32,856 bases of DNA, taken from contig JANXZQ010000320.1 in the NCBI GenBank assembly GCA_025355445.1, forward strand, positions 1 to 32,856, written 5' to 3'. Below are positions 5,462 through 27,792 of this stretch, one piece after another; within the stretch, counting starts at the first letter, position 1; each line of letters opens with the position of its first letter. Below the pieces are notes generated by a model that searched no databases, was not told where the DNA came from, and saw nothing but the letters and a program-made list of their open reading frames with translations. The position numbers and the translations under genes are program-made. The stretch comes from Gammaproteobacteria bacterium. Lineage in GTDB: Bacteria; Pseudomonadota; Gammaproteobacteria; Steroidobacterales; Steroidobacteraceae.

Positions 5462-5633
5462 GTTGGATGGAAATCAGTTTACCTGGATTGACGGGCGGAG
5501 AAAAACCGCTGGAATTCCCCGTGTAATTACTACAAATAACCAATTCGCATTTACATCGACGTAGACGGCAGTTCACAGAAAATGCCGCGACGGCGATCAT
5601 GCTGCCCGTTCCGCACATGCGGCTGTCGAAGCA
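5462..5633. other. divergent intergenic region between beta-propeller and TonB-dependent receptor genes
   Basis: This is part of the largest non-coding stretch (195 bases between the two starts) and is more AT-rich than its surroundings around 5521-5555. On the plus strand TTGACG (5488-5493) with TGGAAT 16 bases later is a weak promoter candidate. On the minus strand TAAACT (5476-5481) is a possible -10 with a poor -35. No Fur box or riboswitch-like structure was recognised. Confidence 0.3.
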
Positions 5634-5643
5634 GGAGTATTGG

Positions 5644-7839
5644 ATGTCTTTACGGGTTATTGCAGTTTTTGGCGTCGCCGCCATGGTGTTTCAGGTCCCG
5701 GCGTCCGCTGCGGCGGAGTCGACGTCCGCGAGCGATGCCGGCGGTCTCGATGAGGTCGTGGTAACCGCTCAGCGCCGTGTGGAATCCTTGCAGGATGTGG
5801 GCATTGCCATCTCCGTTCTGTCCGGCCAGAGCCTGGCAGATAAATCCATCACCTATGTCAATGACCTGAAAAATGCGACCCCCAGCTTGCAGATCGAGCC
5901 TGCTTTCGGCAGCGGCCAACCCCAGTTCCGCTTGCGCGGTGTGGGATTCATCGACTACACGTCAAACAACACCTCGCCGGTCGGCGCCAGCCTCGACGGG
6001 GTCGCCTATGCGCTGCCGATTCAGACTGAAGGGCAATTGTTCGACATCGACCGCGTCGAAGTGCTGCGGGGCCCGCAGGGCACGCTGTACGGACGCAATA
6101 CCACGGGCGGTGTGATCAATTTCATCAGCAATCGGCCTACCGCCGACTTTCATGCGGGCTTCTCCGCCGAGTACGGTTCGCATAATGCGGTGACAGCCGA
6201 GGGCTTCGTATCCGGCGCAGTGGCGGACGGCTTGACGGCGCGGCTGTCGGTGGCTACGGAGCAGGGCGGCGCCTGGCAGCGCAATCGGCTCACGGGTCAG
6301 GAACTGGGGAACAAGGATAAGATCGCGGTGCGCGGCCAATTGCAATGGGATCCTTCCGAGGCAGTGAACTTCCGGCTCGGTGCGCATTTTGCGCAGGACA
6401 AATCCGACGAACAAGGCCTGTACCTGCTGCGCAGCTACGCGCCGGCCAACGGTGCGCCGGCAATTCCGGCCGATACCTCGCGCTATGCCACGGGCTGGAG
6501 CCTCAATCCTACGTTCGCAAAGATCATCGGGATCGACGCAGGCTCCAAGCCAGGGCTCGACGATTCCAATAACGGCGTCGATCTGACCGCAAACATCGAT
6601 TTCGGCGCGGCGAAGCTGACCGGCATCACCGCCTACAACAAGCTCCTCCGGCGCGAGTTCGGCGACTGGGATGCATCGCAGTACTATGACTCCGACGAAT
6701 ACTTCAACAGCAATCTGAACGTCTTCTCGCAAGAGCTGCGGATCGCATCGACGGGGAATGGAGCCCTCGGCTGGGTGGCTGGGGTGTTCTACTCCAATGA
6801 GGACTTGCAGGAGAATTTTTATTCCGATTTCACCGACCGGCTCGGCGGAATCGCGTTGACGCGCTACGAGCAAGTCGCCAACTCGGTCGGCATATTCGGC
6901 CAGGCCAATTTCCATTTCACCGACGCGCTGAACGGCACCCTCGGCGTGCGCGAGGACCACGAGACGCGCGAGTTGAAAGGCTTGAACACGGGCTTCCTGG
7001 TGCCGTCGATTCCCTCCTTCACGGGCGGCGCGCTCGGCGGAACCACCACCTCGAATTTGCCGTCGGGCAAGCTCGAGTTGGATCATAAGGCGGCGGCGGG
7101 CACCTTGATCTATGGGAGCATCAGCCGCGGGGTCAAGTCCGGCGGATTCACGGCGCACAATACCGTGAGTGCGCCGGCGGCCGATCCTTTCCAGCCTGAA
7201 AAGCTCACCGCCTATGAGGTCGGGGTGAAATCGGATATCACGCGCACCCTGCGCCTGGATGCGTCGGTGTTCTACTATCGCTACAAGGACCAGCAGATTC
7301 TCGGCAAGGTGTTCGACGACACTTCGCAGTCCTATATCGGGCGGTTCGTGAATGCGAACTCGCGGATCAGCGGCGGCGAGTTGGAACTTGAATGGCGGCC
7401 TGTGTCCGGAGTGTCGATTTCGCAGTACGTCGGCTATGCGCAGGGCTATTACACGAGCACGTTGCTGGACAGCGGCAATGTCGACTACGACGGCAGGCCG
7501 TTGAGTTTCCCGAAGTGGAGCTACGGCGGCGATCTTGGCTATTCGTGGAACGTGCGCGAGTTCAAGGTCAGCGTCGAAGGCAACTACAGCTTTCACGATA
7601 CCTATAGCCAGTTCTACTTGCTGGGCAGCAACGACTTCACCGTGCCGAAGTACTGGCTGGCCAACGCGAACCTGTCACTGTCGCCGGCCTCCGGCGGACC
7701 TTGGACGGTTGCATTGTGGGGCAGGAACATTCTCAACAAGAACTACGACATCACCCGAAACTTCTTCCTGCCCAGCAGCGAAGTGGCCGCGGCCGGCGAG
7801 CCTGCCACCGTGGGAATTCGGGTCGGCTACAAGTATTAG
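5644..7839 (+). CDS. TonB-dependent outer-membrane receptor
   Basis: A 731-residue outer-membrane importer powered by TonB/ExbBD. It has a signal peptide with cleavage near PASA-AA (about 18-22), the TonB-contact segment LDEVVVTAQRR, and a plug domain with RLRGVG and VEVLRGPQGTLYGRNTTGG. A long beta-barrel follows and ends in the aromatic residue of VGYKY. The amino terminus is typical of receptors in sphingomonads and Xanthomonadales relatives. Two upstream ATGs in frame (5599, 5617) exist, but GGAG at 5634-5637 is 6 bases before 5644 and that start gives a standard signal peptide. The substrate is unknown. The genes after it (hydrolase, peptidase, peptide-type ABC importer) suggest an organic molecule with amide or ester bonds rather than plain iron-siderophore; this is inference. 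Confidence 0.92.
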   Translation: MSLRVIAVFGVAAMVFQVPASAAAESTSASDAGGLDEVVVTAQRRVESLQDVGIAISVLSGQSLADKSITYVNDLKNATPSLQIEPAFGSGQPQFRLRGVGFIDYTSNNTSPVGASLDGVAYALPIQTEGQLFDIDRVEVLRGPQGTLYGRNTTGGVINFISNRPTADFHAGFSAEYGSHNAVTAEGFVSGAVADGLTARLSVATEQGGAWQRNRLTGQELGNKDKIAVRGQLQWDPSEAVNFRLGAHFAQDKSDEQGLYLLRSYAPANGAPAIPADTSRYATGWSLNPTFAKIIGIDAGSKPGLDDSNNGVDLTANIDFGAAKLTGITAYNKLLRREFGDWDASQYYDSDEYFNSNLNVFSQELRIASTGNGALGWVAGVFYSNEDLQENFYSDFTDRLGGIALTRYEQVANSVGIFGQANFHFTDALNGTLGVREDHETRELKGLNTGFLVPSIPSFTGGALGGTTTSNLPSGKLELDHKAAAGTLIYGSISRGVKSGGFTAHNTVSAPAADPFQPEKLTAYEVGVKSDITRTLRLDASVFYYRYKDQQILGKVFDDTSQSYIGRFVNANSRISGGELELEWRPVSGVSISQYVGYAQGYYTSTLLDSGNVDYDGRPLSFPKWSYGGDLGYSWNVREFKVSVEGNYSFHDTYSQFYLLGSNDFTVPKYWLANANLSLSPASGGPWTVALWGRNILNKNYDITRNFFLPSSEVAAAGEPATVGIRVGYKY

Positions 7840-7848
7840 GGCCGACGC

Positions 7849-8805
7849 GTGAAAATACTGGCCGTGGTTTTGGGGATCCTGATTCTGGGTGCCGCCGCCG
7901 CGTGGCTGAAACTGCGCGGGCCGGACATTCCCTACGCGGAATTGGAGGCAAAATACGCGAGCGAGGCATCGCACTTCGTCGATCTGCCGGGCGGCTTTCA
8001 TGTTCATTATCGCGATGAAGGGAATCCCAATGGGCCGTGGTTGCTGCTACTGCATGGATTCGGCGACTCGTACACCAGCTGGGAGGGCTGGGTGCGGGAA
8101 CTCAAGCCGAGATTCCACATCATCAGCCTTGATTTTCCCGGGCACGGCCTGACGCGCGCACCGCAAGGCTATCAATTGAGCGGCGCGGGCTTGGCGGATT
8201 TCGTCGATGCCTTCGCAACCAAGCTGACGCTGCCGAAGTTCGCGGTGGCGGGCAATTCCATGGGCGGCGGCGTCGCCTGGCAGCTGGCCGTGCGCCACCC
8301 AGAGCGCCTCGATGCGCTGATTCTGGTGGACGCGGCCGGCTTTGCGAATGAAAAACCGCCCGCCGCGGTACCGCTGGCCTTCAAGATTTTGCAATACCCC
8401 ATCGGCCGCGCCATCCTGCGCAACATCGACAATCGGCCGCTGATCGCCGAAGGCCTGAAGATCGATGTGTATGACAAATCGCTGATCACGCCGGCGCTGG
8501 TGGATCGCTGGGCGGAGTTCCAACGCGCGCCCGGGCACCGCGCCATATTGTTGGATATCAATTTCGGCGCACAGACAGCGGCTACGGCGGATGTGCTCGG
8601 CGCCATCAAGGCGCCCACCCTGGTATTGCACGGCGCAAGCGATGTGTTGATCGAACCCGCGAGCGCACAGAAATTCGCGGCGGCAATCCCGGGCGCGAAA
8701 CTCATCCTCTACAACCAAGTGGGACATTTGCCGCAAATCGAAATACCGCAGCGCTCGGCCGACGACGCGGCGGCGTTCCTGGACGAGGCGCTGGTTCATC
8801 CCTGA
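7849..8805 (+). CDS. membrane-anchored alpha/beta hydrolase
   Basis: A 318-residue serine hydrolase with one amino-terminal hydrophobic helix (residues 2-20) that reads as an uncleaved anchor or signal. The fold elements are LLLLHGFGDS (66-73, oxyanion HG), nucleophile elbow GNSMGG (135-140, Ser137), acid Asp265 in LHGASD and His293 in QVGHLPQIE, so the triad is intact. Related enzymes hydrolyse esters or C-C bonds; the substrate is not predictable. It starts with GTG, 9 bases after the receptor stop codon, which makes co-transcription very likely. The anchor suggests action on the outer face of the inner membrane, on what the receptor lets in. Confidence 0.85.
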   Translation: MKILAVVLGILILGAAAAWLKLRGPDIPYAELEAKYASEASHFVDLPGGFHVHYRDEGNPNGPWLLLLHGFGDSYTSWEGWVRELKPRFHIISLDFPGHGLTRAPQGYQLSGAGLADFVDAFATKLTLPKFAVAGNSMGGGVAWQLAVRHPERLDALILVDAAGFANEKPPAAVPLAFKILQYPIGRAILRNIDNRPLIAEGLKIDVYDKSLITPALVDRWAEFQRAPGHRAILLDINFGAQTAATADVLGAIKAPTLVLHGASDVLIEPASAQKFAAAIPGAKLILYNQVGHLPQIEIPQRSADDAAAFLDEALVHP

Positions 8806-8833: not shown

Positions 8834-10210
8834 ATGCAGCGCGACTATTTGAGCAATCCGGTCGGCGCGCAACGCGACGCCACGTTGCGCGGCATCGATG
8901 ATTTCATCGAAGGTTTCCTGGCCTACGAGACCCGCGCCGAGCGTATTCTCGGCGCCGCGGACGCCGACGTTGATTCCTGTCTGGCCAACACCTATGCCGG
9001 TATGCTGTGGATGCTGCTCGAAGCGCCCGACGGGCCGCGCCGCGCGGCGAAATATCTGTCCGCCGCGCAAGCCGCGGCGCCTCGCGCCACGCTGCGTGAG
9101 CAGCTCAACACGGCCGTGCTGCGGGCCTGGGTGAATGCCGATGTGGCCGAGGCCGTGCGCCAGTGCGACCGCATATCCGATGAATTTCCGCGCGACCTGG
9201 CCATCGTCAAGCTGCATCAGTATTTTGAATTCAATCGCGGCAATGCTCCGCAAATGTTGCGGGTGGCGCTGAAAGTGGCGGCCGTCAGCGCCGATGTCCC
9301 TTACATGCACGGCTTGACGGCGTTTGCCTACGAGCAATGCCATCTGTTGGACGAGGCGGAAGCCGAGGCGCGCACGGCGCTTGCGATGCGGCACAAGGAG
9401 CCGTGGGCCCAGCATGCGCTGGGACATGTGCTGCTGACGCGTGGGCGCATCGACGAAGGCGCGCGGTTTCTGGAACAGGCGGCAGATACCTGGACCGATT
9501 TGAACTCCTTCATGGTCACCCATCTCTGGTGGCACCTCGCTCTGTTCTATCTCAGCCAGGGGCGCAACGACAAAGTGCTGGAACTCTACGATCATCATTG
9601 CTGGGGCGTCGCGAAGGAGTATTCCCAGGATCAAATCGGCGCCATCTCACTGCTGGCGAGATGCGAGCTTGCCGGAGTTGATGTGGGACGGCGCTGGCAG
9701 GAACTAGGAGCTTTTCTTGCACCGCGCGCGCACGACACGGTGCTGCCGTTTTTGACGCTTCAATACCTGTACGGTCTGGCGCGGTCCGGGCGCCCCGAGG
9801 CCGAAACCCTGTTGGCGGCAGTGCGCCATGCCGCCGAGACCGCGCCGCCGTTCACGCGCGAGGTGTGGCGCGATGTGGCGCTGCCCGGCTGTGAAGGGCT
9901 GTACGCGTACGCACACGGAGACTACCCCAAGGCCTGGCACTGGCTCGTTGCCTGCGTGCCGCGCATGGCGGAGGCCGGCGGCAGTCACGCGCAACGCGAC
10001 CTGTTCGAGCAGGTTTTGCTGGACGCCGCCATCAAGAGCGGCCGAACCACGGCAGCCCAGCAAATACTGGAATTGCGACGCGGGATGGATCCCGAGGGCG
10101 TGCCCGTGAACAACGCGCTCGCCGCGGTGTACTTGACATTGGGTTTGCCGGAACTCGCCGGGCAGGCGGCGGCGCGCGCCGCGCTGACGCGAGCCAGGCA
10201 TCCAGCCTGA
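8834..10210 (+). CDS. TTC38-family tetratricopeptide-like protein
   Basis: A 458-residue soluble all-helical protein. It contains the sequence order typical of the TTC38 family: PYMHGLTAFAYEQCHLLDEA, then WAQHALGHVLLTRGRIDEG, then THLWWHLALFYLSQGRNDKVLELYD, then VGRRWQEL, and finally GGSHAQRDLFEQVLLDAA. Members occur in bacteria and animals, but their biochemical role is unknown. No signal peptide is seen, so it is probably cytosolic. It starts 28 bases after the hydrolase gene, with no good ribosome site. A TATCAT at 8822-8827 just before the ATG would allow a nearly leaderless internal transcript (speculative). A scaffold or enzyme role for the operon is possible but unproven. Confidence 0.8.
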   Translation: MQRDYLSNPVGAQRDATLRGIDDFIEGFLAYETRAERILGAADADVDSCLANTYAGMLWMLLEAPDGPRRAAKYLSAAQAAAPRATLREQLNTAVLRAWVNADVAEAVRQCDRISDEFPRDLAIVKLHQYFEFNRGNAPQMLRVALKVAAVSADVPYMHGLTAFAYEQCHLLDEAEAEARTALAMRHKEPWAQHALGHVLLTRGRIDEGARFLEQAADTWTDLNSFMVTHLWWHLALFYLSQGRNDKVLELYDHHCWGVAKEYSQDQIGAISLLARCELAGVDVGRRWQELGAFLAPRAHDTVLPFLTLQYLYGLARSGRPEAETLLAAVRHAAETAPPFTREVWRDVALPGCEGLYAYAHGDYPKAWHWLVACVPRMAEAGGSHAQRDLFEQVLLDAAIKSGRTTAAQQILELRRGMDPEGVPVNNALAAVYLTLGLPELAGQAAARAALTRARHPA

Positions 10211-10228
10211 TACTTGATCCGAGGCCGC

Positions 10229-11509
10229 ATGTCCACCGATCCGACGGATGATCTCTGCAAGGCCATCGATGAGCGCCGCGATGAGCTGGTCGAGTTGACA
10301 CGCGCGCTGATTCGCTTCCCCACGGTTAATCCGCCCGGCGAGGGCTACCGTCCGTGCGCCGAGTTCATCGGCGATCGTCTGCGTGCCCGCGGTTTCACGG
10401 TGGACTATGTGCGCGCCGCAGGCACGCCCGGCGACAGTGAGCGCTATCCGCGCACCAATGTCATTGCGCGGCGCGCAGGCACGGCGCCCGGGCCGTGCGT
10501 GCACTTCAACGGCCACATCGACGTGGTGCAAGCCGGCGGCGGCTGGACATTGGACCCGTTCGCCGCCGTGGTGAAGGACGGGAGAGTCTACGGCCGCGGG
10601 GCCTGCGACATGAAGGGCGGCCTCGCAGCCGCCATTATCGCGGTCGAAGCATTGATCGATTCCGCGGCAAACTGGCTCGGAACGCTGGAGATCTCGGGTA
10701 CGGTCGACGAGGAATCGGGCGGCTACGGTGGTGTGCACTACCTCGCAGAGCGCGGCTGGTTCTCGCCGCCGCGGGTGGATCACGTCATCATCCCGGAGCC
10801 GCTCAATGTCGATCGGGTTTGCATCGGGCATCGCGGTGTATGGTGGGCCGAGATCGAGACTCATGGACGGATGGCGCACGGGTCTATGCCCTTTCTCGGC
10901 GATTGCGCGATACGTCACATGCACGCGGTGGTCGAGCGCTTCGAGCGCGATCTGTATCCAAAGCTTGCGGCCCGCCATACGGACATGCCCGTGGTGCCGC
11001 CGGGCGCGCGGCATTCGACTCTGAATATCAATTCCATCCACGGCGGCCAGGCCGAGGTGCCGGGATTTCCCACTCCGGTGGTGCCGGACTCCTGCCGCAT
11101 GATCATCGACCGCCGGCTGCTCATCGAGGAGAGCATCGACAGCGTCAAGGGCGAGATGCGCGAACTGCTCGACCAGCTCGTCAACGACCGGGATGGATTT
11201 GGCTATCACATCCGGGATATTTTCGAGGTGGCGCCTACGATGGCGGATCGCAATGGGCCGGTCGCCCGCAGTACCGCTGCCGCGGTTTGCCGCGTGCTCG
11301 GCCGCGACCCTGAGTTCATTTGTTCGCCCGGCACCTACGATCAGAAGCACATCGACCGCGTCGGCAAATTGCGCGACTGCGTCGCCTACGGCCCCGGAAT
11401 CCTCGATCTGGCGCATCAGCCGGATGAGTACGTGGTGATCGAGGACATGCTCAATTCGGCGAAGGTGATGGCGCTGGCCGCCCGATCGCTGCTGTACGGA
11501 ACCGCGTGA
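10229..11509 (+). CDS. M20 family metallopeptidase (ArgE/DapE/acylase type)
   Basis: A 426-residue cytosolic zinc hydrolase of the M20 family, which removes amino acids or acyl groups from peptides and N-acyl amino acids. The metal and catalytic residues are present: His96 in NGHID with Asp98, Asp127 in GRGACDMKGG, Glu161-Glu162 in VDEESGG, Glu190 in IIPEP, and a final His in LAHQPDEY. The dimerisation-domain His217 in GRMAHGS is also there. The ATG at 10229 has GAGG four bases upstream; a TTG at 10214 has none. Its last base triplet overlaps the GTG of the next gene (GTGA), tying it to the ABC importer. The likely job is cleavage of the imported compound. Confidence 0.88.
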   Translation: MSTDPTDDLCKAIDERRDELVELTRALIRFPTVNPPGEGYRPCAEFIGDRLRARGFTVDYVRAAGTPGDSERYPRTNVIARRAGTAPGPCVHFNGHIDVVQAGGGWTLDPFAAVVKDGRVYGRGACDMKGGLAAAIIAVEALIDSAANWLGTLEISGTVDEESGGYGGVHYLAERGWFSPPRVDHVIIPEPLNVDRVCIGHRGVWWAEIETHGRMAHGSMPFLGDCAIRHMHAVVERFERDLYPKLAARHTDMPVVPPGARHSTLNINSIHGGQAEVPGFPTPVVPDSCRMIIDRRLLIEESIDSVKGEMRELLDQLVNDRDGFGYHIRDIFEVAPTMADRNGPVARSTAAAVCRVLGRDPEFICSPGTYDQKHIDRVGKLRDCVAYGPGILDLAHQPDEYVVIEDMLNSAKVMALAARSLLYGTA

Positions 11510-14103
11510 AGGGCCGATTACTGGCAGCGCTGCTGCTGCTGATGGCGAACTTAAGCGCGCCCGCAGCCAATCGGGTGACGCTGGGCATGCAACTCGAGCC
11601 GCCCGTTCTCGATCCCACGGCAAATCCGGCGGCGGCGATCTCCGAAATCTTCTACGGCAATGTGTATGAGGGGCTGGTGCAATTTGCCGCCGATGGCTCG
11701 GTGGTACCCAAACTCGCCACGGCCTGGGAGTCTTCCGCGGACGGACTGACGATGGTCTTTCATTTACGCGGTGGCGTGCGCTTTCATGACGGCAGCACCT
11801 TCGACGCGGCGGCCGCCAAGTTTTCCCTGGAGCGGGCCATCGACCCCAACTCGGTGAATCCGCAGAAATCGCGCTTGGCCAAGATCCGGGCGATCGACAT
11901 GGTCGATCCCCTCACCTTGCGCATTGCCCTCAAGCAGCGCTCGGGGGGACTGCTGCAATCCCTCGCGTGGGGGGCGTTCGTCATGGTGTCGCCGCAGACG
12001 GCGGCGAGCAACGCGGTACGGCCCGTGGGCACGGGTCCTTTCCGTTTCTCCGGCTGGCGCCGCGGCGATTCGCTTACCTTGGTGCGCAATGCGGACTACT
12101 GGGGCACCCCCGCCAAACTCGATGTTGCGACGTTCAAATTCATCGCGGAGCCCACCGCAGCATACGCCGCGCTGATGGCGGGCGATGTGGACGCGTTTTC
12201 GAACTATCCGGCGCCGGAGAGCTTTGCACAATTCGCGGCCGATCCTCGTTTCTCGGTATTCACCGGCACCACGGAGATGGAAACGGTGCTGGCGCTGAAT
12301 CAGCGGGAAGCGCCGTTCAACGAGATCAAGGTGCGCCGCGCGATTTCCTACGCACTCGATCGGAGCGCCATCATCGACGGCGCCATGTTCGGCTACGGCA
12401 CGCCGATCGGCAGCCACTTCCCGCCGCACAACGCGGATTATTTGGATCTCACCGGCGTGTATCCCCACGACGTGGCCAAGGCCAAAGCTCTGCTGGCGCA
12501 GGCCGGATACCCGCAGGGCTTTTCTGCGACCCTGAAGCTGCCGCCCCCGAGCTATGCGCGGCGCGGCGGCGAAATCGTCGCCGCTCAGCTCGCACAAGTC
12601 GGAATCCGTGTGCGCATCGAGAACCTGGAATGGGCGCAGTGGCTGGAACAGGTGTTCACGCGGCATGATTTCGACATGAGCATCGTGGGACACGCCGAGC
12701 CCATGGATTACGATATCTACGCGCGCGCCGATTATTACTTCGGCTACAGCAATCCTGAATTCAATGCGCTGATCGGCGCACTCGACGACACCCTCGATGC
12801 GGCGCGGCGCCGCGAACTGCTGCAGCAGATTCAGCGCAAGCTGGCGGAGGACGCGGTCAATGGCTTCTTGTTCCAGTACCCGCGGCTCGATATCTGGGAT
12901 GTTCATTTGCACGATCTTGGCTTCGACAACGTACTGGGAGTCGTCGATTTAAGCCGTGCCCACTATGATGCACTGAGCGCGCGCACCACTGCACCCGACG
13001 CGACGGCACCCGGCGCGACGGCTCGAGCCGTCGCCGGCGCGGACGGCGGCACCGGCTTCTCCGCCGGCCGGCCATTGCGTTGGCACATTGCCGCCGTGGC
13101 TTGGTCGGCCATCGCCGTGCTTTTGTGCGTGTTCATTTCGCGGCGATTCGGCGTCGTGTATCTGGCAGAGCGATTGGGCCTGCTCGTTGCCACCTTGCTG
13201 GCTGCGACCGTCATCGTTTTCATCATCGTGCAAATCGTACCCGGCGATCCGGTGCGCTACATGATGGGGTTGCAGGCAGATCCGGACACCGTGGCGGCGG
13301 TGCGCCGGCAACTGGGCTTGGACGCAGCTCCGCTGCAGCGCTATGGACATTGGATCGCCGGGCTGATGCGCGGCGACTTCGGCAGCAGCTACACCTACCG
13401 AGTCCCTGTGGGCGAGCTCATCGCGGAGCGCCTGCAGGTGTCCTTGCCACTGGCCCTGTATGCATTGCTGCTTGCCACAGTGCTTGCCTTCCCCGTCGGC
13501 CTGATATCTGCTGTCCGGCGCGGCCGGGTCGTCGATGCGCTGCTGACGGGAATCACGCAGCTGGGGCTGGCCATACCGAATTTCTGGCTGGGAATATTGC
13601 TGGTCATGGTGTTCGCCGTCGGCCTTCACTGGGTATCCGCGGGCGGCTTTCCGGGCTGGGATGCGGGACTGCCGGCGGCCCTTAAGGCGCTGACGCTGCC
13701 GGCGATTGCGCTCGCCATGCCGCAGGCGGCCATCCTTGCGCGCGTGTTGCGCGGTTCGCTGCTCGACACATTGCACGAAGACTATATCCGCACGGCGCGG
13801 TCCAAGGGCGCGGGCGAGTGGCAGGTGCTGTGGCGCCACGCGCTGCCCAATGCGATGGTACCGGTGCTGACCATCCTCGGTATGCAGTTCTCATTTCTCC
13901 TGGCGGGCGGCGTCATCATTGAGAACGTGTTTTTTCTGCCGGGGCTGGGCCGGCTGGTGTTCCAGGCCATCGTGCAGCGCGACCTGATCGTGGTGCAGAG
14001 CGTGGTGGTAGTGCTGGTGTTTGCCGTGGTGACCGTGACGTTCGTGGTGGACCTTTGCTACCTGTTGGTCAATCCGCGATTACGGGCGGCGGGCGCCGCA
14101 TGA
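11506..14103 (+). CDS. fused peptide-binding protein (SBP family 5) and DppB-type ABC permease
   Basis: An 865-residue protein that joins two normally separate parts of a dipeptide/oligopeptide importer. A signal peptide (1-20) is followed by a complete DppA/OppA-like binding domain (about 23-489), with LEPPVLDPT, the YEGLV strand and GTGPFRFSGW. A low-complexity Ala/Thr/Pro/Gly linker (490-524) leads to an added helix (526-545) and a basic SRRFG stretch. From about 552 comes a full DppB permease, with VPGDPVRYMMG, RGDFGSSYTYR, and the EAA loop RTARSKGAGEWQVLWRHALP at 762-781. The added helix brings the chain back to the cytoplasm before the permease, so the topology is consistent. The gene starts GTG overlapping the M20 stop and ends ATGA over the next gene. 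Separate DppA and DppB are the norm. Confidence 0.9.
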   Translation: MKGRLLAALLLLMANLSAPAANRVTLGMQLEPPVLDPTANPAAAISEIFYGNVYEGLVQFAADGSVVPKLATAWESSADGLTMVFHLRGGVRFHDGSTFDAAAAKFSLERAIDPNSVNPQKSRLAKIRAIDMVDPLTLRIALKQRSGGLLQSLAWGAFVMVSPQTAASNAVRPVGTGPFRFSGWRRGDSLTLVRNADYWGTPAKLDVATFKFIAEPTAAYAALMAGDVDAFSNYPAPESFAQFAADPRFSVFTGTTEMETVLALNQREAPFNEIKVRRAISYALDRSAIIDGAMFGYGTPIGSHFPPHNADYLDLTGVYPHDVAKAKALLAQAGYPQGFSATLKLPPPSYARRGGEIVAAQLAQVGIRVRIENLEWAQWLEQVFTRHDFDMSIVGHAEPMDYDIYARADYYFGYSNPEFNALIGALDDTLDAARRRELLQQIQRKLAEDAVNGFLFQYPRLDIWDVHLHDLGFDNVLGVVDLSRAHYDALSARTTAPDATAPGATARAVAGADGGTGFSAGRPLRWHIAAVAWSAIAVLLCVFISRRFGVVYLAERLGLLVATLLAATVIVFIIVQIVPGDPVRYMMGLQADPDTVAAVRRQLGLDAAPLQRYGHWIAGLMRGDFGSSYTYRVPVGELIAERLQVSLPLALYALLLATVLAFPVGLISAVRRGRVVDALLTGITQLGLAIPNFWLGILLVMVFAVGLHWVSAGGFPGWDAGLPAALKALTLPAIALAMPQAAILARVLRGSLLDTLHEDYIRTARSKGAGEWQVLWRHALPNAMVPVLTILGMQFSFLLAGGVIIENVFFLPGLGRLVFQAIVQRDLIVVQSVVVVLVFAVVTVTFVVDLCYLLVNPRLRAAGAA
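12991..13020 (+). repeat. tandem 15-bp duplication in the linker of the fused transporter
   Basis: Two adjacent 15-base units, GCACCCGACGCGACG (12991-13005) and GCACCCGGCGCGACG (13006-13020), differ at one base. They encode the repeated APDAT/APGAT stretch of the linker between binding protein and permease. Confidence 0.75.
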
Positions 14104-14933
14104 AAGTCTCCGAGTTGCACAGCGGCACGGCAGCACGTCGCGCAGGTCTCGCCGCCGGCGCGGCCATTACGATATTTTTCTTCGGACTCGCCCTACTGGC
14201 GCAATTTTGGACGCCGTACGATCCCACTGCGCTGTCGATCGTCGACAAGCTGCAGGCGCCGAGCGTGCGTCACTGGTTCGGCACCGATCAGCTGGGCCGC
14301 GACGTGCTGTCGATGATCATGGCCGGTACCAAGAACTCGGTGGGTGTGGCGTTGCTCTCGGTGATCATCGGCGTGCTCATCGGAGTGCCCCTGGGGCTGC
14401 TGGGGGCGTCGCGGCGGGGAGCGATCGACGAGCTGGTCATGCGCGGCAATGATGTGATATTCGCGTTTCCCTCCTTGCTGCTCGCGATCCTGATCACGGC
14501 CGTGTTCGGTCCCGGAGCGGTCAACGCCATCATCGCCATCGGCCTTTTCAACATTCCGGTATTCGCACGCGTCACGCGCGGCGGCGCACTGCAGCTGTGG
14601 ACTCGCGACTACTGCCTGGCCGCGCGGGTTGCAGGCAAGGGGCCGCTGCGAATTTCTCTCGAACACATTTTGCCGAACCTGGTTGGATTGCTGGTGGTGC
14701 AAGGTGCAATACAATTTTCTCTCGGGGTCATTGCAGAGGCGGGGTTGTCCTATGTGGGGTTGGGCGCGCAGCCTCCCGTGCCCAGTTGGGGCCGGATGCT
14801 CAACGAAGCGCAGACGCTGACGGCGCTGGCGCCGTCGCTTGCCTTGTTCCCAGGCGTGACCGTACTGCTGTTCGTATTGGGGCTGAATCTGCTCGGCGAC
14901 GGCTTGCGCCGGCGCCAGGAACGGTCGATATGA
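14100..14933 (+). CDS. DppC-type ABC transporter permease
   Basis: A 277-residue inner-membrane permease, the second channel half of the peptide-type importer. It has an amino-terminal helix at 19-37, then HWFGTDQLGRDVLS (59-72), a motif typical of DppC/OppC/NikC. The EAA loop that docks the ATPase is ARVAGKGPLRISLEHILPN (175-193). The end LGLNLLGDGLRRR is also typical. Its ATG at 14100 overlaps the TGA of the fusion gene by four bases, so translation is coupled; upstream in-frame starts lie inside that gene. It pairs with the permease half of the fused protein. Confidence 0.92.
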   Translation: MKVSELHSGTAARRAGLAAGAAITIFFFGLALLAQFWTPYDPTALSIVDKLQAPSVRHWFGTDQLGRDVLSMIMAGTKNSVGVALLSVIIGVLIGVPLGLLGASRRGAIDELVMRGNDVIFAFPSLLLAILITAVFGPGAVNAIIAIGLFNIPVFARVTRGGALQLWTRDYCLAARVAGKGPLRISLEHILPNLVGLLVVQGAIQFSLGVIAEAGLSYVGLGAQPPVPSWGRMLNEAQTLTALAPSLALFPGVTVLLFVLGLNLLGDGLRRRQERSI

Positions 14934-16549
14934 CGCAGGCAGCAACCTCGGGCGCGGCTCCAGCACCGCTGCTGCAAATCGACGCGCTCAATGTGTCGAT
15001 CGGCGGCGTGCAGATCATCAAGAATCTGTCGCTGCAAATGGGGGCCGGGGAGATTCTGGGTTTGGTCGGCGCCTCAGGCTCCGGCAAATCGATGCTGGCG
15101 CTGGCCATCATGCAGCTATTGCCCACGTACGCCCGCTCGAGCGGCGCGGTGCGTCTGCGCCATGAGACTCTGACCGGCATGGGCGAGACCGAGATGCAAC
15201 ACGTGCGGGGCCGCGACATCGGCATGGTGTTTCAAGAACCCATGACGGCCTTGAACCCTCTGATGCGTGTCGGCGATCAGGTGGCGGAGACGGTGCGGCT
15301 GCATCGCTCCGTGTCCGGTGCAGAAGCGAGGCGCATGGCGCGCGAGACCCTCGCTCTGGTCGGTTTGCCTGACGAGCCGGATCGGTTGCCCTACGAACTC
15401 TCCGGCGGCCAGCGGCAGCGGGTGGCCATTGCGATGGCCGCAGTATTGGCGCCGCCCTTGCTGATTGCCGATGAGCCCACTACCGCCCTGGATGCAGTCA
15501 CTCAGATGCAGGTGCTGGGGCTTCTGAAAGATTTGGCACGCACCCGCAATATGGGGCTGATATTGGTGACTCATGATCTTGCCGTCGCGGCGCAGATGAC
15601 GGATCGAGTCGCGGTGATGAACCAAGGAGAGATCGTCGAGGTGGGCGCAACCCGCTCGCTGCTCAATGCCTTGCAGCATCCCTACGGCAAGGCGCTGCTG
15701 GCCGCCGCCGAATTGCCGCATAAACGGGGGTTGCCTGCTCACGCGAAGGTCTCGCCGGTGTTGCTGGCGAGCGATGTCGTTCATGAATATCCGCGCCGGC
15801 GGCGCTCGTTGTGGCGCACGTCGCCGGCATTGCGGGCAGTGGACGGCGTTTCACTTTTCGTCGATGCCGGCGAGACCGTGGGCCTGGTCGGCGAGTCCGG
15901 CTCCGGCAAGTCCAGCTTGCTGCGCGTCATTCTCGCGCTGCAACGGCCGCAGGCAGGGGAGATTCGCCTGCTCGGCGATGCGTTTTCCAGCGCCCGAGGC
16001 GCCGCGTTGCGCCGGCTGCGCCGCTCGATTCAAGCAGTGTTTCAAGATCCCTACGGCAGCTTCGATCCGCAATGGACTGTCGAGCGACTGATTGCGGAGC
16101 CGTTTTTTCTGATGGATTCGCCGCCGTCCTCGGCCGAGCGCCGGCATAGAGTGTCCGGCGTACTCGAGCAAGTCGGTCTGTCGCGTTCCGATGCCAAACG
16201 CCTCCCGCACGAATTCTCCGGCGGACAGCGTCAGCGCATCGCGATCGCGCGTGCCCTGATTACCGAGCCGTCGCTGATCGTATTCGATGAGGCGGTGTCG
16301 GCGCTCGACGTGCTGGTCCGCGCCCAGATACTGGAGTTGCTGACAGCCCTAAGCGAACGGTTGCGTCTGGGATACTTATTCGTGTCGCACGATCTGAATG
16401 TGGTCCGATCCATCGCCGACCGGATATATGTCATGCAGCAAGGCCGCATCGTGGAGCACGGACCGACACAGGCCGTGTTTGCCGCGCCTCGCCACGCGTA
16501 TACCGCAAGCCTGATCGCCGCCATTCCGACATTTCCCGCCGGCCCATAG
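14930..16549 (+). CDS. double ATPase of a peptide-type ABC importer (DppD-DppF fusion)
   Basis: A 539-residue cytosolic protein with two complete ABC cassettes. Cassette 1: Walker A GASGSGKS (47-54), Q-loop FQEP, signature LSGGQ (157-161), Walker B Asp181/Glu182, switch His215. Cassette 2: GESGSGKS (321-328), FQDP, FSGGQ (429-433), Asp453/Glu454 in FDEAVSALD, His487. Both therefore look active. Tandem ATPases of this sort (YejF, GsiA) are well known for this transporter class. The ATG overlaps the DppC stop by four bases (ATGA). With the two preceding genes it completes an importer made of only three polypeptides. It is the last gene of the operon; the opposite-strand gene ends 2 bases away. 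Confidence 0.93.
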   Translation: MTQAATSGAAPAPLLQIDALNVSIGGVQIIKNLSLQMGAGEILGLVGASGSGKSMLALAIMQLLPTYARSSGAVRLRHETLTGMGETEMQHVRGRDIGMVFQEPMTALNPLMRVGDQVAETVRLHRSVSGAEARRMARETLALVGLPDEPDRLPYELSGGQRQRVAIAMAAVLAPPLLIADEPTTALDAVTQMQVLGLLKDLARTRNMGLILVTHDLAVAAQMTDRVAVMNQGEIVEVGATRSLLNALQHPYGKALLAAAELPHKRGLPAHAKVSPVLLASDVVHEYPRRRRSLWRTSPALRAVDGVSLFVDAGETVGLVGESGSGKSSLLRVILALQRPQAGEIRLLGDAFSSARGAALRRLRRSIQAVFQDPYGSFDPQWTVERLIAEPFFLMDSPPSSAERRHRVSGVLEQVGLSRSDAKRLPHEFSGGQRQRIAIARALITEPSLIVFDEAVSALDVLVRAQILELLTALSERLRLGYLFVSHDLNVVRSIADRIYVMQQGRIVEHGPTQAVFAAPRHAYTASLIAAIPTFPAGP

Positions 16550-16551
16550 GT

Positions 16552-17175
16552 TCAAGGAACCGCTTCCGGACCCGCGGCAGGCGGCGCATCCCGCATATGC
16601 TTGAACAATTCACCATTCGCCGGCTTGGTTCCGATCCCGCAGACGGGGAAGGGGAGTGGGGCCAGCACCAGCACGCATCGGTCATTCAAATTAATGAGCA
16701 GCCCGCCTTCCGGCAAGGATTCAACTCGATGGGTGGGCGCGTAATCCCAGCTGAATTCCGGGGGTTTCGCCGCCGCCGGACCCGGGTGGTGCGGCAGGCC
16801 GAAGTCGCGCCGGGCCGGGGCCGCCTCGCGCAACGAGTTGTCTTTCACGGCCCGCTCCAATTCCGCGTTCCAGTCTATGCTTGGCCCGTCATCACGAGCC
16901 TCATCCGGCGCGGCCAGGAGCGACAGGGAATCGTCGGCTTGCGGACCCGGCTTGCGAAGCTCGACCCCTAAGGGCGGAATTGCCGGCGCATGCACTTGAG
17001 GATGAATGAGCACCTGTGAAATGGGTGGCGTGATGAAGACATACTCGAATGCCGATGCTCGGTCGGGCAGGGATATTTTGATCCTCGTCGGCAGCAGCGA
17101 AAACACTGCGATATGAAGCAGCGCCACCAACAAGGCGGCCCAGAGACTCTGGGCTCGTCGCCGAGTGTCCGGCAC
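16552..17175 (-). CDS. single-pass protein with TonB-like amino terminus, unknown function
   Basis: A 207-residue protein. A short basic cytosolic tail (VPDTRRR) leads to one helix (11-28, with a histidine at 21) and a Pro-rich periplasmic stretch, as in TonB/TolA-like proteins. The carboxy end is not a TonB domain. It is a compact segment at 157-194 with LNDRCVLV, PFPVCGIGTKPANGELFKHM, and two cysteines (167, 179) that could pair. I recall this ending in uncharacterised Xanthomonadales proteins, without a known role. GTG at 17175 is chosen because GGAG is 6 bases before it and it follows the upstream gene stop by 16 bases; a longer frame to 17364 would run inside that gene. It is the third gene of the PadR cassette. 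Confidence 0.6.
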   Translation of the reverse strand: MPDTRRRAQSLWAALLVALLHIAVFSLLPTRIKISLPDRASAFEYVFITPPISQVLIHPQVHAPAIPPLGVELRKPGPQADDSLSLLAAPDEARDDGPSIDWNAELERAVKDNSLREAAPARRDFGLPHHPGPAAAKPPEFSWDYAPTHRVESLPEGGLLINLNDRCVLVLAPLPFPVCGIGTKPANGELFKHMRDAPPAAGPEAVP

Positions 17176-17181
17176 GAGAAG

Positions 17182-17185
17182 CTCC
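17182..17185 (-). promoter_or_regulatory. ribosome binding site fixing the GTG start at 17175
   Basis: GGAG on the minus strand, 6 bases before the GTG. It supports a 207-residue protein that begins right before its single transmembrane helix. Confidence 0.5.
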
Positions 17186-17191
17186 GGTAAG

Positions 17192-17899
17192 TCAGTCCAA
17201 GCTCTGCCGAGTGAGCCGGCGAACCGCCAGCCACAGAGGTCCAAGAACGAGCGCCGCCATCGCCGCAGCTCTTGCCACCTGTCCCGGAAGGGAGTCCATC
17301 GAGAGCCCAATACCGCCGCCGGCCGTTCCGGGGTCCACGCCTCCGCGGACGACCACCTGAACATTCATGAGGGAAACGAATGCACACAGTGCCAGTATGC
17401 CCGCGACCGGCCACTTCAATGCGACGCGCTGTCGATAGGCCAGTGCGGCAAAGGCGGCCGAGATGGAAATGGGCGCGATCCACAAGAGCGCCAGCTGCGC
17501 TCCCAGATCGATGCGGTGAGAAACCTCAGGCGCCACTTGGATTCGGTGGAGATAGGCTTCCAGTGGAGTGGAGAAGGCCCAGGCGATGGCCACCAGCAGC
17601 AGAGGCAGGGCGACGAAGCATAGGAATGGGAATAGAGTGAACAGGAGTCCGGCACGGCGGCTTACCCAGGATTGCAACTCCGGCCGACTCACAAACCGGT
17701 GGACGATATCTTGATCGGATCCGAGCAGAGCGTGTGCCTCGATGCGCGCCTCTTCCAAGCTCGCGCCGCTTGTCAGCGCCGCATCGACCGATTGTTGGAA
17801 ATGGCTCTGGAATTCTGCGACGGTTCGATTGGCGTGACCGGCGGCAATTCCCGAGCGCAGCAGGCGTTCCCTCAAGGAGATGAACCTACGCTCAATCAT
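17192..17899 (-). CDS. HAAS/permease-prefix-like helical domain fused to a four-helix membrane protein
   Basis: A 235-residue protein. Residues about 8-70 form a helical domain with the pattern RLLRSG, a central VAEFQSHFQQSV, then SLEEARIEAHALLGSDQDI. This resembles HAAS or permease-prefix domains that sit next to PadR regulators. Four hydrophobic segments follow at about 84-108, 133-155, 163-182 and 209-227. There is no FtsX/MacB permease domain. ATG at 17899 has a strong GGGGAGGGG before it and overlaps the PadR stop by 8 bases, which indicates coupled translation. Such pairs are thought to sense a membrane signal for the PadR repressor; this role is inference. Confidence 0.65.
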   Translation of the reverse strand: MIERRFISLRERLLRSGIAAGHANRTVAEFQSHFQQSVDAALTSGASLEEARIEAHALLGSDQDIVHRFVSRPELQSWVSRRAGLLFTLFPFLCFVALPLLLVAIAWAFSTPLEAYLHRIQVAPEVSHRIDLGAQLALLWIAPISISAAFAALAYRQRVALKWPVAGILALCAFVSLMNVQVVVRGGVDPGTAGGGIGLSMDSLPGQVARAAAMAALVLGPLWLAVRRLTRQSLD

Positions 17900-18230
17900 G
17901 GGACCCCTCCCCGAGAATGGCTGCGACACCGCGGCTCATCCGGCGCCAATCCTCGGATAATTTGGCGAGCCGTGCACGGCCCCGGGCCGTCGGACTGTAG
18001 TAGATCCTGGTTCTTCCATCGACTCGAGCGCTTCTGGCGCGCAGCAGCCGCCGCGACTCCATGGCATGCAGCGCCGGATAGAGCACGCCCTCGCCGATGA
18101 TCAAGGCGTCGCTGGAAATGAGTTTGATCGAGCGGGCGATTTCATAGCCGTACATCTCGCGTGCGGCGAGCAGCCTGAGGATCAGCAGTTCGGGGACACC
18201 GGACATGAGCGCGGAATTTCGTTCAGCCAT
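17892..18230 (-). CDS. PadR family transcriptional regulator
   Basis: A 112-residue winged-helix regulator. The DNA-binding part has ELLILRLLAAREMYGYEIA and LIIGEGVLYPALHAMESRRLL, followed by the beta wing RTRIYYSPTARGRARL, all standard for short PadR proteins that act as dimers. ATG at 18230 has GAGG about 7 bases upstream; an ATG at 18236 is an alternative. It leads a three-gene unit with the two membrane proteins that follow. A 10-bp perfect palindrome covers the predicted -10 just upstream, consistent with self-repression. Confidence 0.85.
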   Translation of the reverse strand: MAERNSALMSGVPELLILRLLAAREMYGYEIARSIKLISSDALIIGEGVLYPALHAMESRRLLRARSARVDGRTRIYYSPTARGRARLAKLSEDWRRMSRGVAAILGEGSHD

Positions 18231-18284: not shown

Positions 18285-19280
18285 CTAAGCCGAGGCGCTG
18301 AAATGCACGGCTCGGCCGATGGCGCGCGCCAGGCAATCCGCCGCGGCAGAGCCGATACGCCCGATGTGGGCTGCGCGTTGATACGTCGCATCGAGTCCCA
18401 CCGCAGCACTCGCCAGCGCGAAAATCGTATCGCCATCAAAGGGGGTGTGGGCCGGACGCACCGCGCGCGCGATCCCGTCCTGCGCCATCATGGCCACGCG
18501 CTTGCATTCCACCGTGGTCAGGTCGGCGTTGCATGCAACCACGCCCAGCGTGGTGTTTGCGCCGGCTTGCAAGCGGCCGAGCGCCCGAAGCCGAGACTCG
18601 TCGGGTGCAGGATCGCTCAAGTCCATGGACGCGGGCGGACCAAGGCCGCCGAATTCCCGGTCGAGCTCAAACGCCCAGGCCCAGCAGGTCTTGCCGTCGG
18701 GCATCAGCGCCGAACCCACCGAGTTCAAGGCCACCAACGCGCCCACCATTAGTCCGTCGCCCAAATCCAAAGAGGCGGAACCGATGCCGCCCTTGATCAT
18801 GCCCGCCATGGCGCCGCGTCCGGCGCCCACGGAACCTAATGCGAAATCAGCGGCGGCGGCGTCGAGCGCGCGAAGACCTAAATCACGGTACGGCGGATCG
18901 AGGCCCCAGAGCTTGTCGCCGCCATTACCGAGATCATGCAGCACCGCGGATGGCACGATGGGAATGTGCGGTGAGCCGGGCCGCAACTGCAAGCCGATGC
19001 CCCTGGCCGAGAGCGCCGTGGCCACACCGTCCGCTGCGGCCAGTCCGAACACCGAGCCGCCGGCGAGCACCACCGCGTGCGCGCGACCTACCAGATTCTC
19101 CGGAGACAGGGCATCGGTCTCGCGTCCGCCAGGCCCGCCTCCCCGCACATCCACCCCGGCCCGCCAGGCCGCACCGCATAGCAGCGTGGTGACTCCGGAC
19201 CTGACATGCTCATCGGACGCGTGCCCAACGCGCAGCCCCTCAATATCGGTAATCAGGTTTTTGGGGCCGGGCCGAAACAT
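18285..19280 (-). CDS. P1 family (DmpA-like) peptidase
   Basis: A 331-residue hydrolase of the P1/DmpA family, whose members cut themselves to create an amino-terminal nucleophile and then release amino-terminal residues from small peptides or amides. The expected cleavage site is in GANTTLGVVACNA: Asn242-Thr243, with Thr243 as the candidate nucleophile. DVRGGGPGGRETD and VLAGGSVFGLAAADGV are further family segments. No signal peptide is seen. ATG at 19280 is preferred over TTG at 19289, since GAGG is close by and the coaX stop ends 5 bases earlier. It is translated right after coaX. Some relatives prefer beta-alanyl substrates, which would suit a CoA-pathway link (inference). Confidence 0.85.
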   Translation of the reverse strand: MFRPGPKNLITDIEGLRVGHASDEHVRSGVTTLLCGAAWRAGVDVRGGGPGGRETDALSPENLVGRAHAVVLAGGSVFGLAAADGVATALSARGIGLQLRPGSPHIPIVPSAVLHDLGNGGDKLWGLDPPYRDLGLRALDAAAADFALGSVGAGRGAMAGMIKGGIGSASLDLGDGLMVGALVALNSVGSALMPDGKTCWAWAFELDREFGGLGPPASMDLSDPAPDESRLRALGRLQAGANTTLGVVACNADLTTVECKRVAMMAQDGIARAVRPAHTPFDGDTIFALASAAVGLDATYQRAAHIGRIGSAAADCLARAIGRAVHFSASA

Positions 19281-19285
19281 TGGCC

Positions 19286-20041
19286 TCAACGTGGCTGAGC
19301 CGCGAAGACCGCCAATCCCTGCAGCACGAGGTCCGGCACGATCTCGCCCTGCAAGCGCATCGTGCCCGTGATCATTCCAGCGTCGCCGCCGGTGATGAAC
19401 AATCTAGGCTTTACGCCGGTGCTTTGTTCGATCACGTCGGCAACCCGATCCGCCATGCCTGCCAAGGCAAAAACGGCGCCGCGGGACACGGCTCCGATGG
19501 TATTGTTGGCGAGCACTCCCGCGAGCGATGGTGTGCTGCGTTGCGCCGCCTTGGCGATATCGCTGGTCTTTTTCATCAATGCCTCGCGCATCATGTGGAT
19601 GCCGGGCGCGATCAGACCGCCGAGATGCTGGCCGGCGGCATCCACGCTATCAACCTTGACGGCAGTGCCGGCATCCACCACGCACAGCGCCGAGCGCGCC
19701 ATGGTCCAAGCGCCGATCAAGGCGAGCCAGCGGTCAGCGCCCAGCAGTGTCGGGTCAAGATATCCGTTGGTGAGCCCTTGAAAATCCAGGGCGGCGGTCA
19801 CGTACTCGACGTCGACCTTGAACAACTTCTTGGCGAGGCGGGTGAGCGTTTTTGCCATGGCCGGCCCGGCCACGTTGGAAACCAGCACCCGGCTTGGGCG
19901 TTGGCCTGATTCGAATAGAGCGCTGGTCCAAATGCCCGGCTTGGCGTCGCGATGCACGACGGCCTGCTGATCGGACAGTCCGGTGCTCGTGAGCCAAGCC
20001 CACTTCAGGCGGGTGTTACCCACGTCGATGACCAAAATCAT
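19286..20041 (-). CDS. coaX: type III pantothenate kinase
   Basis: A 251-residue cytosolic enzyme that phosphorylates pantothenate with ATP, the first step of coenzyme A synthesis. The CoaX motifs are complete: phosphate loop DVGNTRLKW (6-14), GADRWLALIGAW (101-112) with catalytic-type Asp103, DAGTAVKVD (123-131), and GGLIAPG (141-147). Length matches the family. It starts with ATG, and the P1 peptidase gene follows after 5 bases. The usual neighbour birA is not here; an MscS channel gene ends 66 bases upstream. Confidence 0.94.
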   Translation of the reverse strand: MILVIDVGNTRLKWAWLTSTGLSDQQAVVHRDAKPGIWTSALFESGQRPSRVLVSNVAGPAMAKTLTRLAKKLFKVDVEYVTAALDFQGLTNGYLDPTLLGADRWLALIGAWTMARSALCVVDAGTAVKVDSVDAAGQHLGGLIAPGIHMMREALMKKTSDIAKAAQRSTPSLAGVLANNTIGAVSRGAVFALAGMADRVADVIEQSTGVKPRLFITGGDAGMITGTMRLQGEIVPDLVLQGLAVFAAQPR

Positions 20042-27317: not shown

Positions 27318-27792
27318 AGGTCTGTGAACGGCCGAGCAGCGAAAAGCCGATAAAACCACGCACCACCAGGACGCTGCCGTCGTTCTCCAGGTGAAATTTG
27401 CAGTGATACACCGAGCCGCTGTCGGGATCGAGAATGTCGCCGCCGCCGTACTCGCCGTCGTGCAAAGTCACGTTGCGAATAATCAGAAGCCCAATGATGG
27501 GTTGATTCTTGCGGTCGTCCTTGCACACCGAGCAAACGCGTGTTTCGGCGCCCGGCGTGAAGCTCTGTTCAATTCGTCCTAAATATTTCTCGTCTTGCAG
27601 ATAGATCCGCACCAGCGCGCGGGGCATACCTGTCTTGTCGTCGAAGGTCTTCCACAGGCCCAGTGGCGATTGCGATCCGACGGCTTGCACGCTGAGCGGC
27701 AGGCTCGTGAGCAGGAACGCGGCCAGGCAGGCGGCCGCTAACCGGCTACCAACCCACCGCTTGTCCGTCTTTGCGATGATCCGAAGCTCCAT
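27301..27792 (-). CDS. exported DUF2147 protein
   Basis: A 163-residue protein with a signal peptide (basic MELRIIAKTDKR, core about 18-32, cleavage near VQA). DUF2147 features follow: GLWKTFDDKTGMPRALVRIY, RVCSVCKDDRKNQPIIGL, LHDGEYGGGDILDPDSG and LVVRGFIGFSLLGRSQTWRR. The family is periplasmic, about 150 residues, of unknown role. Two cysteines sit in CSVC. ATG at 27792 has GAGGG 8 bases before it, although this makes the gene overlap the end of the gamma-glutamyltransferase gene by 47 bases in another frame. Confidence 0.82.
   Translation of the reverse strand: MELRIIAKTDKRWVGSRLAAACLAAFLLTSLPLSVQAVGSQSPLGLWKTFDDKTGMPRALVRIYLQDEKYLGRIEQSFTPGAETRVCSVCKDDRKNQPIIGLLIIRNVTLHDGEYGGGDILDPDSGSVYHCKFHLENDGSVLVVRGFIGFSLLGRSQTWRRQN

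Follow-up and report, generated by a model that had tools for sequence, protein, structure and literature searches.

Importers of the peptide class are the textbook case of an ATP-binding cassette (ABC) transporter served by a free substrate-binding protein (SBP), and the question raised here is what a single reading frame holding both the SBP and a permease of such an importer represents. The frame (11506-14103, forward strand) lies on contig JANXZQ010000320.1 of assembly GCA_025355445.1, derived from a gammaproteobacterium of the family Steroidobacteraceae; the whole stretch of 32,856 nucleotides that was analysed is hereafter called the window. The original prediction, made from the DNA itself, had taken the frame for a functional fusion with one binding domain permanently tethered to each permease. 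We conclude, with a probability of roughly 0.85, that the frame encodes a true and inherited fusion, in which a family 5 SBP is joined to the DppB-type permease of the importer that it serves and which would tether one binding domain per importer.

A binding protein and a permease in one frame

The frame is uninterrupted and encodes a chain of 865 amino acids and about 91 kDa, its GTG start overlapping the stop of an upstream M20 peptidase gene. The product begins with a signal peptide (residues 1-22; 11506-11571) recognized from its sequence, the cleavage site being guessed by eye near APA-AN; among the fused relatives described below, most of the 40 with a start found also carry a hydrophobic N-terminal stretch (no start was found in 4 of 44). 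The SBP family 5 domain (residues 23-488; 11572-12969), identified by Pfam, Foldseek and phmmer, is followed by a low-complexity linker (residues 489-523; 12970-13074), which is disordered as judged by the predicted local distance difference test (pLDDT) and little constrained as judged by the ratio of non-synonymous to synonymous changes (pN/pS). A predicted added transmembrane helix (residues 524-548; 13075-13149), with RR at its cytosolic end, then leads into a complete DppB-type permease (residues 549-865; 13150-14100), all on the forward strand. The sole Pfam matches are SBP_bac_5 (PF00496; residues 66-398, 288 bits against a cut-off of 32.4), BPD_transp_1_N (PF19300; residues 553-624) and BPD_transp_1 (PF00528; residues 662-860, 137 bits).

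An AlphaFold2 model, computed from an input alignment of 36 fused sequences, has a mean pLDDT of 81, falls below 50 at residues 492-525, and places a helix at 524-548 directly before the first DppB helix (550-577). Hydropathy peaks at residues 527-545, with a maximum Kyte-Doolittle value of 2.23, and RR follows at 546-547. The layout originally proposed, a single frame with a linker at 490-524 and a helix at 526-545, agrees with the open frame, both Pfam domains, the model and the hydropathy peak.

Each half resembles known proteins of its own kind. Foldseek matched the SBP half best to YliB (1uqw, E 4.4e-33), and the 50 matches listed (of 453) are all binding proteins of the SBP fold. By phmmer, the solved protein closest in sequence to the SBP half is AgaA (6hlx, E 3.8e-59), an agropinic acid binding protein solved as a separate protein and remote from the SBP of the fusion, so that the substrate is not fixed by it; for the permease half it is E. 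coli DppB (8z1v, E 3.5e-61). No solved chain long enough for both domains was present among the 60 listed of the 91 matched by phmmer.

The rest of the importer is encoded immediately downstream. The stop of the fusion is overlapped by the ATG of a gene for a separate DppC-type second permease (14100-14933, forward strand), which matches PF00528 only and carries no SBP, and this gene in turn overlaps one encoding two ATPase domains in a single chain of the DppD-DppF type (14930-16549, forward strand; two ABC_tran stretches and oligo_HPY). The gene row probably forms one operon, and the three-polypeptide importer outlined in the original prediction was recovered at the same positions. The SBP-free DppC beside the fusion predicts a heterodimer of two different permeases, one of them bearing the SBP.

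By domain content, the importer is of the peptide/nickel (family 5 SBP) class: SBP_bac_5 occurs with two BPD_transp_1 permeases, BPD_transp_1_N being on the B subunit, and with two ABC ATPase domains with an oligo_HPY tail in one chain. It remains below the DppA and DppB equivalog cut-offs, however. In the 25 of 32 NCBIfam models listed, the fusion lies under every curated cut-off (DppA 125/1005, DppB 210/590, Opp2B 289/350 bits), and the neighbouring subunits are also below their equivalog cut-offs (DppC 194/483, DppF 379/660 bits). The DppC-type protein scores 244.6 bits for Opp2C (cut-off 300), and the double ATPase scores highest for YejF (479 bits, under the cut-off of 834) and passes the cut-offs of NikD, NikE and NF008453 (dipeptide ATPase subfamily) with its two domains summed. 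The names DppA and DppB are used loosely, and dipeptide specificity is not supported because no curated DppA or DppB cut-off is reached by the fusion.

Distribution and ancestry of the fused form

One scan of public genome contigs yielded 79 loci, which a script sorted by the presence of both domains and of intervening stops: 42 are fused, 33 have separate frames and 4 lack a permease in the stretch covered. Among the fused loci are some from isolates of Caulobacter, Brevundimonas, Roseateles and Rhodocyclus; some 15 of the 42 are mutually close copies of Brevundimonas type. The original prediction had named relatives that all have separate genes as speaking against it, and this is not what the loci show. 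The fused set used below (n = 45) consists of these 42 loci, two loci from relatives (L007, L011) and the window; eight loci (L001, L003, L004, L005, L006, L008, L009, L010) were left out as repeats. Two of the public fusions, L079 (labelled Bordetella) and L083 (labelled Methylotenera), nest inside Brevundimonas and Roseateles and are probably misbinned contigs of metagenome-assembled genomes.

Closer to the window, a search of 60 relatives found a near-full-length single-frame match in 8 of the 59 other genomes, 7 of these among 22 genomes of the same genus, and in 200 genomes of the window's family all 18 that match at E up to 1e-100 (its own included) are single-frame. A draw of 398 genomes of the phylum gave 30 loci, 29 besides that of the window (L120-L148). 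L120, in genome G435, is fused; stops lie between the halves in 12; and 16 have an SBP without a permease in the stretch given, their separateness being read from two separate matches. In the draw itself, G333 and G306 likewise had stops between the halves. Within the family of G435 (62 genomes), 22 of 23 matching genomes are single-frame, and one, of another genus, has separate genes.

Several candidates were discarded on translation. The stretches G014:C207, G042:C19, G056:C8 and G005:C282, whose SBP and permease matches had equal frame lengths, contain stops between the genes, and equal frame-length values were not used as evidence of fusion. Stops also separate the genes in L024, L026 and L029, and 15 further stretches proved to have stops between the halves (12) or the permease before the SBP (3). 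A one-piece match on a Sinorhizobium plasmid was a two-gene locus. In a spread of 60 taken from 627 plasmid records, 9 rows cover both halves, 8 of them as two annotated genes and 1 unannotated. One record of the plasmid collection, NZ_CP141089.1 (4.9 Mb, E. coli), is probably a chromosome.

An assembly or sequencing error that merged two genes might be suspected in a source genome as fragmented as this one (548 contigs, 84% complete). Conservation in independent assemblies served as a stand-in for read coverage across the join: independent assemblies, isolates included, contain the fusion with linkers that differ in length and sequence, which rules out an assembly slip and leaves an error only a negligible probability. 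The earlier statement that the fusion is not such a slip is borne out.

The fused loci also tend to stand together in trees. In an 88-row tree including 13 distant two-gene outgroup rows, the fused label requires 2 changes, against a mean of 29.8 for shuffled labels. A careful 32-row tree unites the 19 fused rows in one clade (83/69), or 18 of them (100/99) when L060, a fused Woeseiaceae locus, is set aside. Adding 11 rows, five of them from the G435 family that join L060 at 100/98, gives a 43-row tree with 25 fused rows in one clade (91/86); rooted on the two-gene locus L156, it has two-gene rows diverging on both sides below the fused clade. We therefore favour a single origin of the fusion from separate genes, which these trees do not prove. 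L060 (4983-7529), L120 and L150-L153 make up a second main fused branch, in which the SBP tails still resemble those of two-gene relatives.

Transfer between classes is suggested by two groupings in the trees: gammaproteobacteria of the window's type cluster with the betaproteobacteria Rhodocyclus and Roseateles, and the Woeseiaceae locus L093 clusters with the alphaproteobacterial Brevundimonas. A more elaborate scenario, which we regard as tentative and rather doubtful, is that the fusion arose once by read-through of the SBP-DppB spacer, the spacer becoming the new helix, and later passed from class to class along with a TonB receptor; a scarce substrate delivered through the outer membrane would then encounter a binding domain that is part of its importer.

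The added helix and the proposed tether of the binding domain

The N-terminus of DppB is cytoplasmic. One membrane crossing must be added to a fusion of this kind, because the SBP is periplasmic and DppB starts in the cytoplasm, and the helix had been predicted to provide exactly this return of the chain. The comparison of loci accords with the prediction: every one of the 45 fused sequences has a hydrophobic stretch between the domains (Kyte-Doolittle means over 19 residues peak at 1.52-2.90, reaching at least 1.6 in 43), and the model of the window's fusion forms a helix there. Lysine and arginine are more numerous after the stretch than before it in 41 of the 45, equal in 3 and fewer in 1. 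Six additional fused loci have the stretch as well (6/6; maximum hydropathy 1.64-2.59).

The two-gene relatives have a stop after the SBP and their own DppB, which in 4 of the 33 public loci lies 0.9-3.1 kb away. Compared with the window, the 35 two-gene loci are 48-57% identical in the SBP and 53-66% in DppB; their SBP ends 20-27 residues past the aligned end, with a maximum hydropathy of 1.19 in the C-terminal tail, and their DppB, its start taken as the furthest in-frame start within 15 codons, begins 2-4 residues before the position of residue 552 in 34 of 35 and 14 residues before it in the other, i.e., at the first helix. The distance between the conserved ends is of the same size class in both forms but somewhat longer in the fused one (168-243 nt, median 177, in 45 rows, vs. 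62-402 nt, median 160, in 31 adjacent two-gene rows; Mann-Whitney p 0.003). In every case examined, a helix was added where the periplasmic domain was joined to the N-in permease, which would make membrane topology a constraint on gene fusion.

Selection appears to act unevenly along the chain. In four comparisons, pN/pS is 0.13-0.27 in the SBP and DppB, as expected of constrained domains, and 0.57-1.1 in the linker plus helix (14-29 codons), the linker alone giving 0.60-0.73. The near-neutral helix would be kept only as a hydrophobic stretch. This bears on the proposal that the added helix lies against the permease and links ATPase activity to the binding of substrate: the first DppB helix follows it immediately in the model, as such coupling would suit, yet the near-neutral drift speaks against a specific interface, and we consider the proposal very unlikely.

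It may also be asked whether free DppB is made from an internal start, the fusion being just one of two products. In the window, in-frame TTG (540), GTG (542) and GTG (551) codons would allow this, but no Shine-Dalgarno-like stretch was seen by eye before them. Elsewhere, 24 of the 44 other fused loci (many of them Brevundimonas near-copies) have no in-frame ATG, GTG or TTG at 540-556, so that an internal start yielding free DppB is not general among them, and a Shine-Dalgarno-like stretch precedes an in-frame start in just 2 of the 44 (L037, L060). A second product of this kind is highly improbable.

We propose that, after export and removal of the signal peptide, the binding domain folds in the periplasm, the added helix crosses the inner membrane once, and the chain, having reached the cytoplasm, continues as a normal N-in DppB that would pair with the separate DppC and the double ATPase. 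If membrane insertion and topology are as predicted and the linker is spared by proteases, its approximately 35 flexible residues would tether one binding domain per importer. Transport would then be served by intramolecular docking at a high effective concentration, with no free SBP pool; the cost would be that each importer has a single binding domain and cannot exchange it for another.

A competing possibility is that one chain is made and its low-complexity linker is then cleaved in the periplasm; this would release a free or loose SBP, of about 52 kDa for the window's protein, and leave the permease with one additional helix at its start. The model shows a disordered linker, whose sequence is little constrained and which proteases could reach. 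On the other hand, no conserved cleavage motif was seen by eye in the linker alignment, and the fusion persists in alpha-, beta- and gammaproteobacterial loci although separate genes give a free SBP at no cost. We consider cleavage unlikely.

The following points weigh against an inherited, tethered fusion as the explanation. Processing of the linker could free the SBP, and permanent tethering, as claimed in the original prediction, assumes an uncut linker, which is beyond what sequence can tell. The fusion is rare in the phylum: the draw of 398 genomes produced only that of the window and that of G435, and separate genes are common. A quick 58-row tree set L060 among two-gene rows and rejected a single fused clade (p-AU 0.023), and in neither careful tree does the single fused clade have a starred branch (83/69; 91/86). 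Across its 25 codons, the helix evolves almost neutrally (pN/pS 0.57-1.1). Lastly, the M20 gene directly upstream in the window has a relative in just 14 of 37 fused loci (22 of 24 two-gene loci); these neighbour counts, obtained by tblastn with the window's proteins in loci with at least 4.5 kb upstream, a relative being accepted anywhere in the stretch, track tree and taxonomy and are not independent observations. A fusion that arose a second time in L060, as the quick tree would have implied, was discarded, that signal being reversed in the careful 32-row and 43-row trees.

Among systems already described, OpuA and GlnPQ are the closest in design and belong to other SBP and importer families (OpuAC, SBP_bac_3). 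The SBP of the fusion matches PF00496 only, and the fusion would work like OpuA yet is outside that family. It shares with OpuA and GlnPQ a binding domain and a permease in one chain and a predicted anchoring helix between them (hydropathy in 45/45; model), and differs in being Gram-negative and in having its SBP at the N-terminus with a signal peptide of its own. SBP-permease fusions are known from Gram-positive bacteria in OpuA (PMC11065425), GlnPQ (PMC8025302) and OpuF, i.e., in other importer families. OpuA has two subunits bearing a substrate-binding domain (PMC11065425), in contrast to the single SBP predicted here on one of two different permeases, and GlnPQ has tandem domains (PMC8025302) where the fusion has one SBP. 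An 11-residue tether was estimated by the authors of the OpuA paper to give 4 mM (PMC11065425); reusing this arithmetic for a tether of approximately 35 residues, we estimate an effective SBP concentration of a few tenths of mM. Cooperativity is cited in a review (PMC8276074) for importers whose SBP is fused.

E. coli DppABCDF resembles the fusion importer in its family 5 SBP, DppB and DppC permeases and two ATPase domains, and differs in its separate DppA, its five subunits and the lack of an added helix. In its published description, a single DppA caps the DppB and DppC pair; without DppA the translocator has no ATPase activity, and the two elute apart from a column, DppA failing to co-purify with the wild-type form (PMC12136057). 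A single tethered SBP in each complex would fit such capping.

Two-gene relatives of closer kinship include L034, on a Qingshengfaniella plasmid (FPZ52_RS18605, RS18610), with the order M20, SBP, DppB, DppC and double ATPase and a P1 peptidase nearby, and loci of Granulosicoccus, SAR116 and Maritimibacter. As controls, these close relatives would offer a natural test, within one family and in Gram-negatives, of a free SBP pool against one fixed domain per importer. The SBP-permease fusion is in itself already known elsewhere, and its tethered-SBP form in a peptide-class importer of Gram-negatives is apparently new: no account of an SBP family 5-DppB fusion was found in the open-licence PMC literature searched, a scope outside which most subscription papers and preprints fall, and domain databases may list the architecture.

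Neighbouring genes and a possible substrate

The importer subunits accompany both forms, relatives of DppC being found in 37/37 fused and 23/24 two-gene loci and those of the double ATPase in 37/37 and 22/24. The gene row is headed by a TonB-dependent receptor (5599-7839, forward strand; PF00593, PF07715), which has a relative in 28 of 37 fused loci (19 of 28 after thinning of Brevundimonas) and in none of the 24 two-gene loci. An alpha/beta hydrolase follows (7849-8805, forward strand; PF00561), its hydrophobic N-terminus, noted by eye, being a possible anchor (relatives in 15/37 fused and 2/24 two-gene loci). The next gene encodes a tetratricopeptide repeat (TPR)-like protein of 458 residues (8834-10210, forward strand), with no Pfam match and a weak TPR-type NCBIfam match, which we take to be reminiscent of the TTC38-like family (relatives in 15/37 and 3/24). 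The row of TonB receptor, alpha/beta hydrolase and TPR-like protein, in the same orientation as the importer, recurs in several fused loci (e.g., L036, L037, L038, L077, L081 and L085).

Directly upstream of the fusion lies the M20 peptidase/deacylase gene of the PRK13013 family (10214-11509, forward strand; NF009558, 717.6 bits, cut-off 428). Beyond the importer, on the reverse strand, a peptidase of family S58 (P1/DmpA type; 18285-19289; PF03576, 174.7 bits) is a possible functional partner. It had no NCBIfam match at 0.001, and relatives occur in 28 of 37 fused and 13 of 24 two-gene loci; being near the importer in both locus types, it may act on the imported compound. Judging from the neighbours, the substrate is probably a peptide-like, perhaps modified-peptide compound that would enter via the TonB receptor and be split by the M20 and S58 peptidases.

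Two further features of the reverse strand are recorded. At 16552-17929, two adjacent reading frames of 270 and 245 amino acids have no Pfam match, the second showing membrane-like stretches by eye, and a gamma-glutamyltranspeptidase (27746-29539; Pfam, 461 bits) is another peptide-cleaving enzyme in the window.

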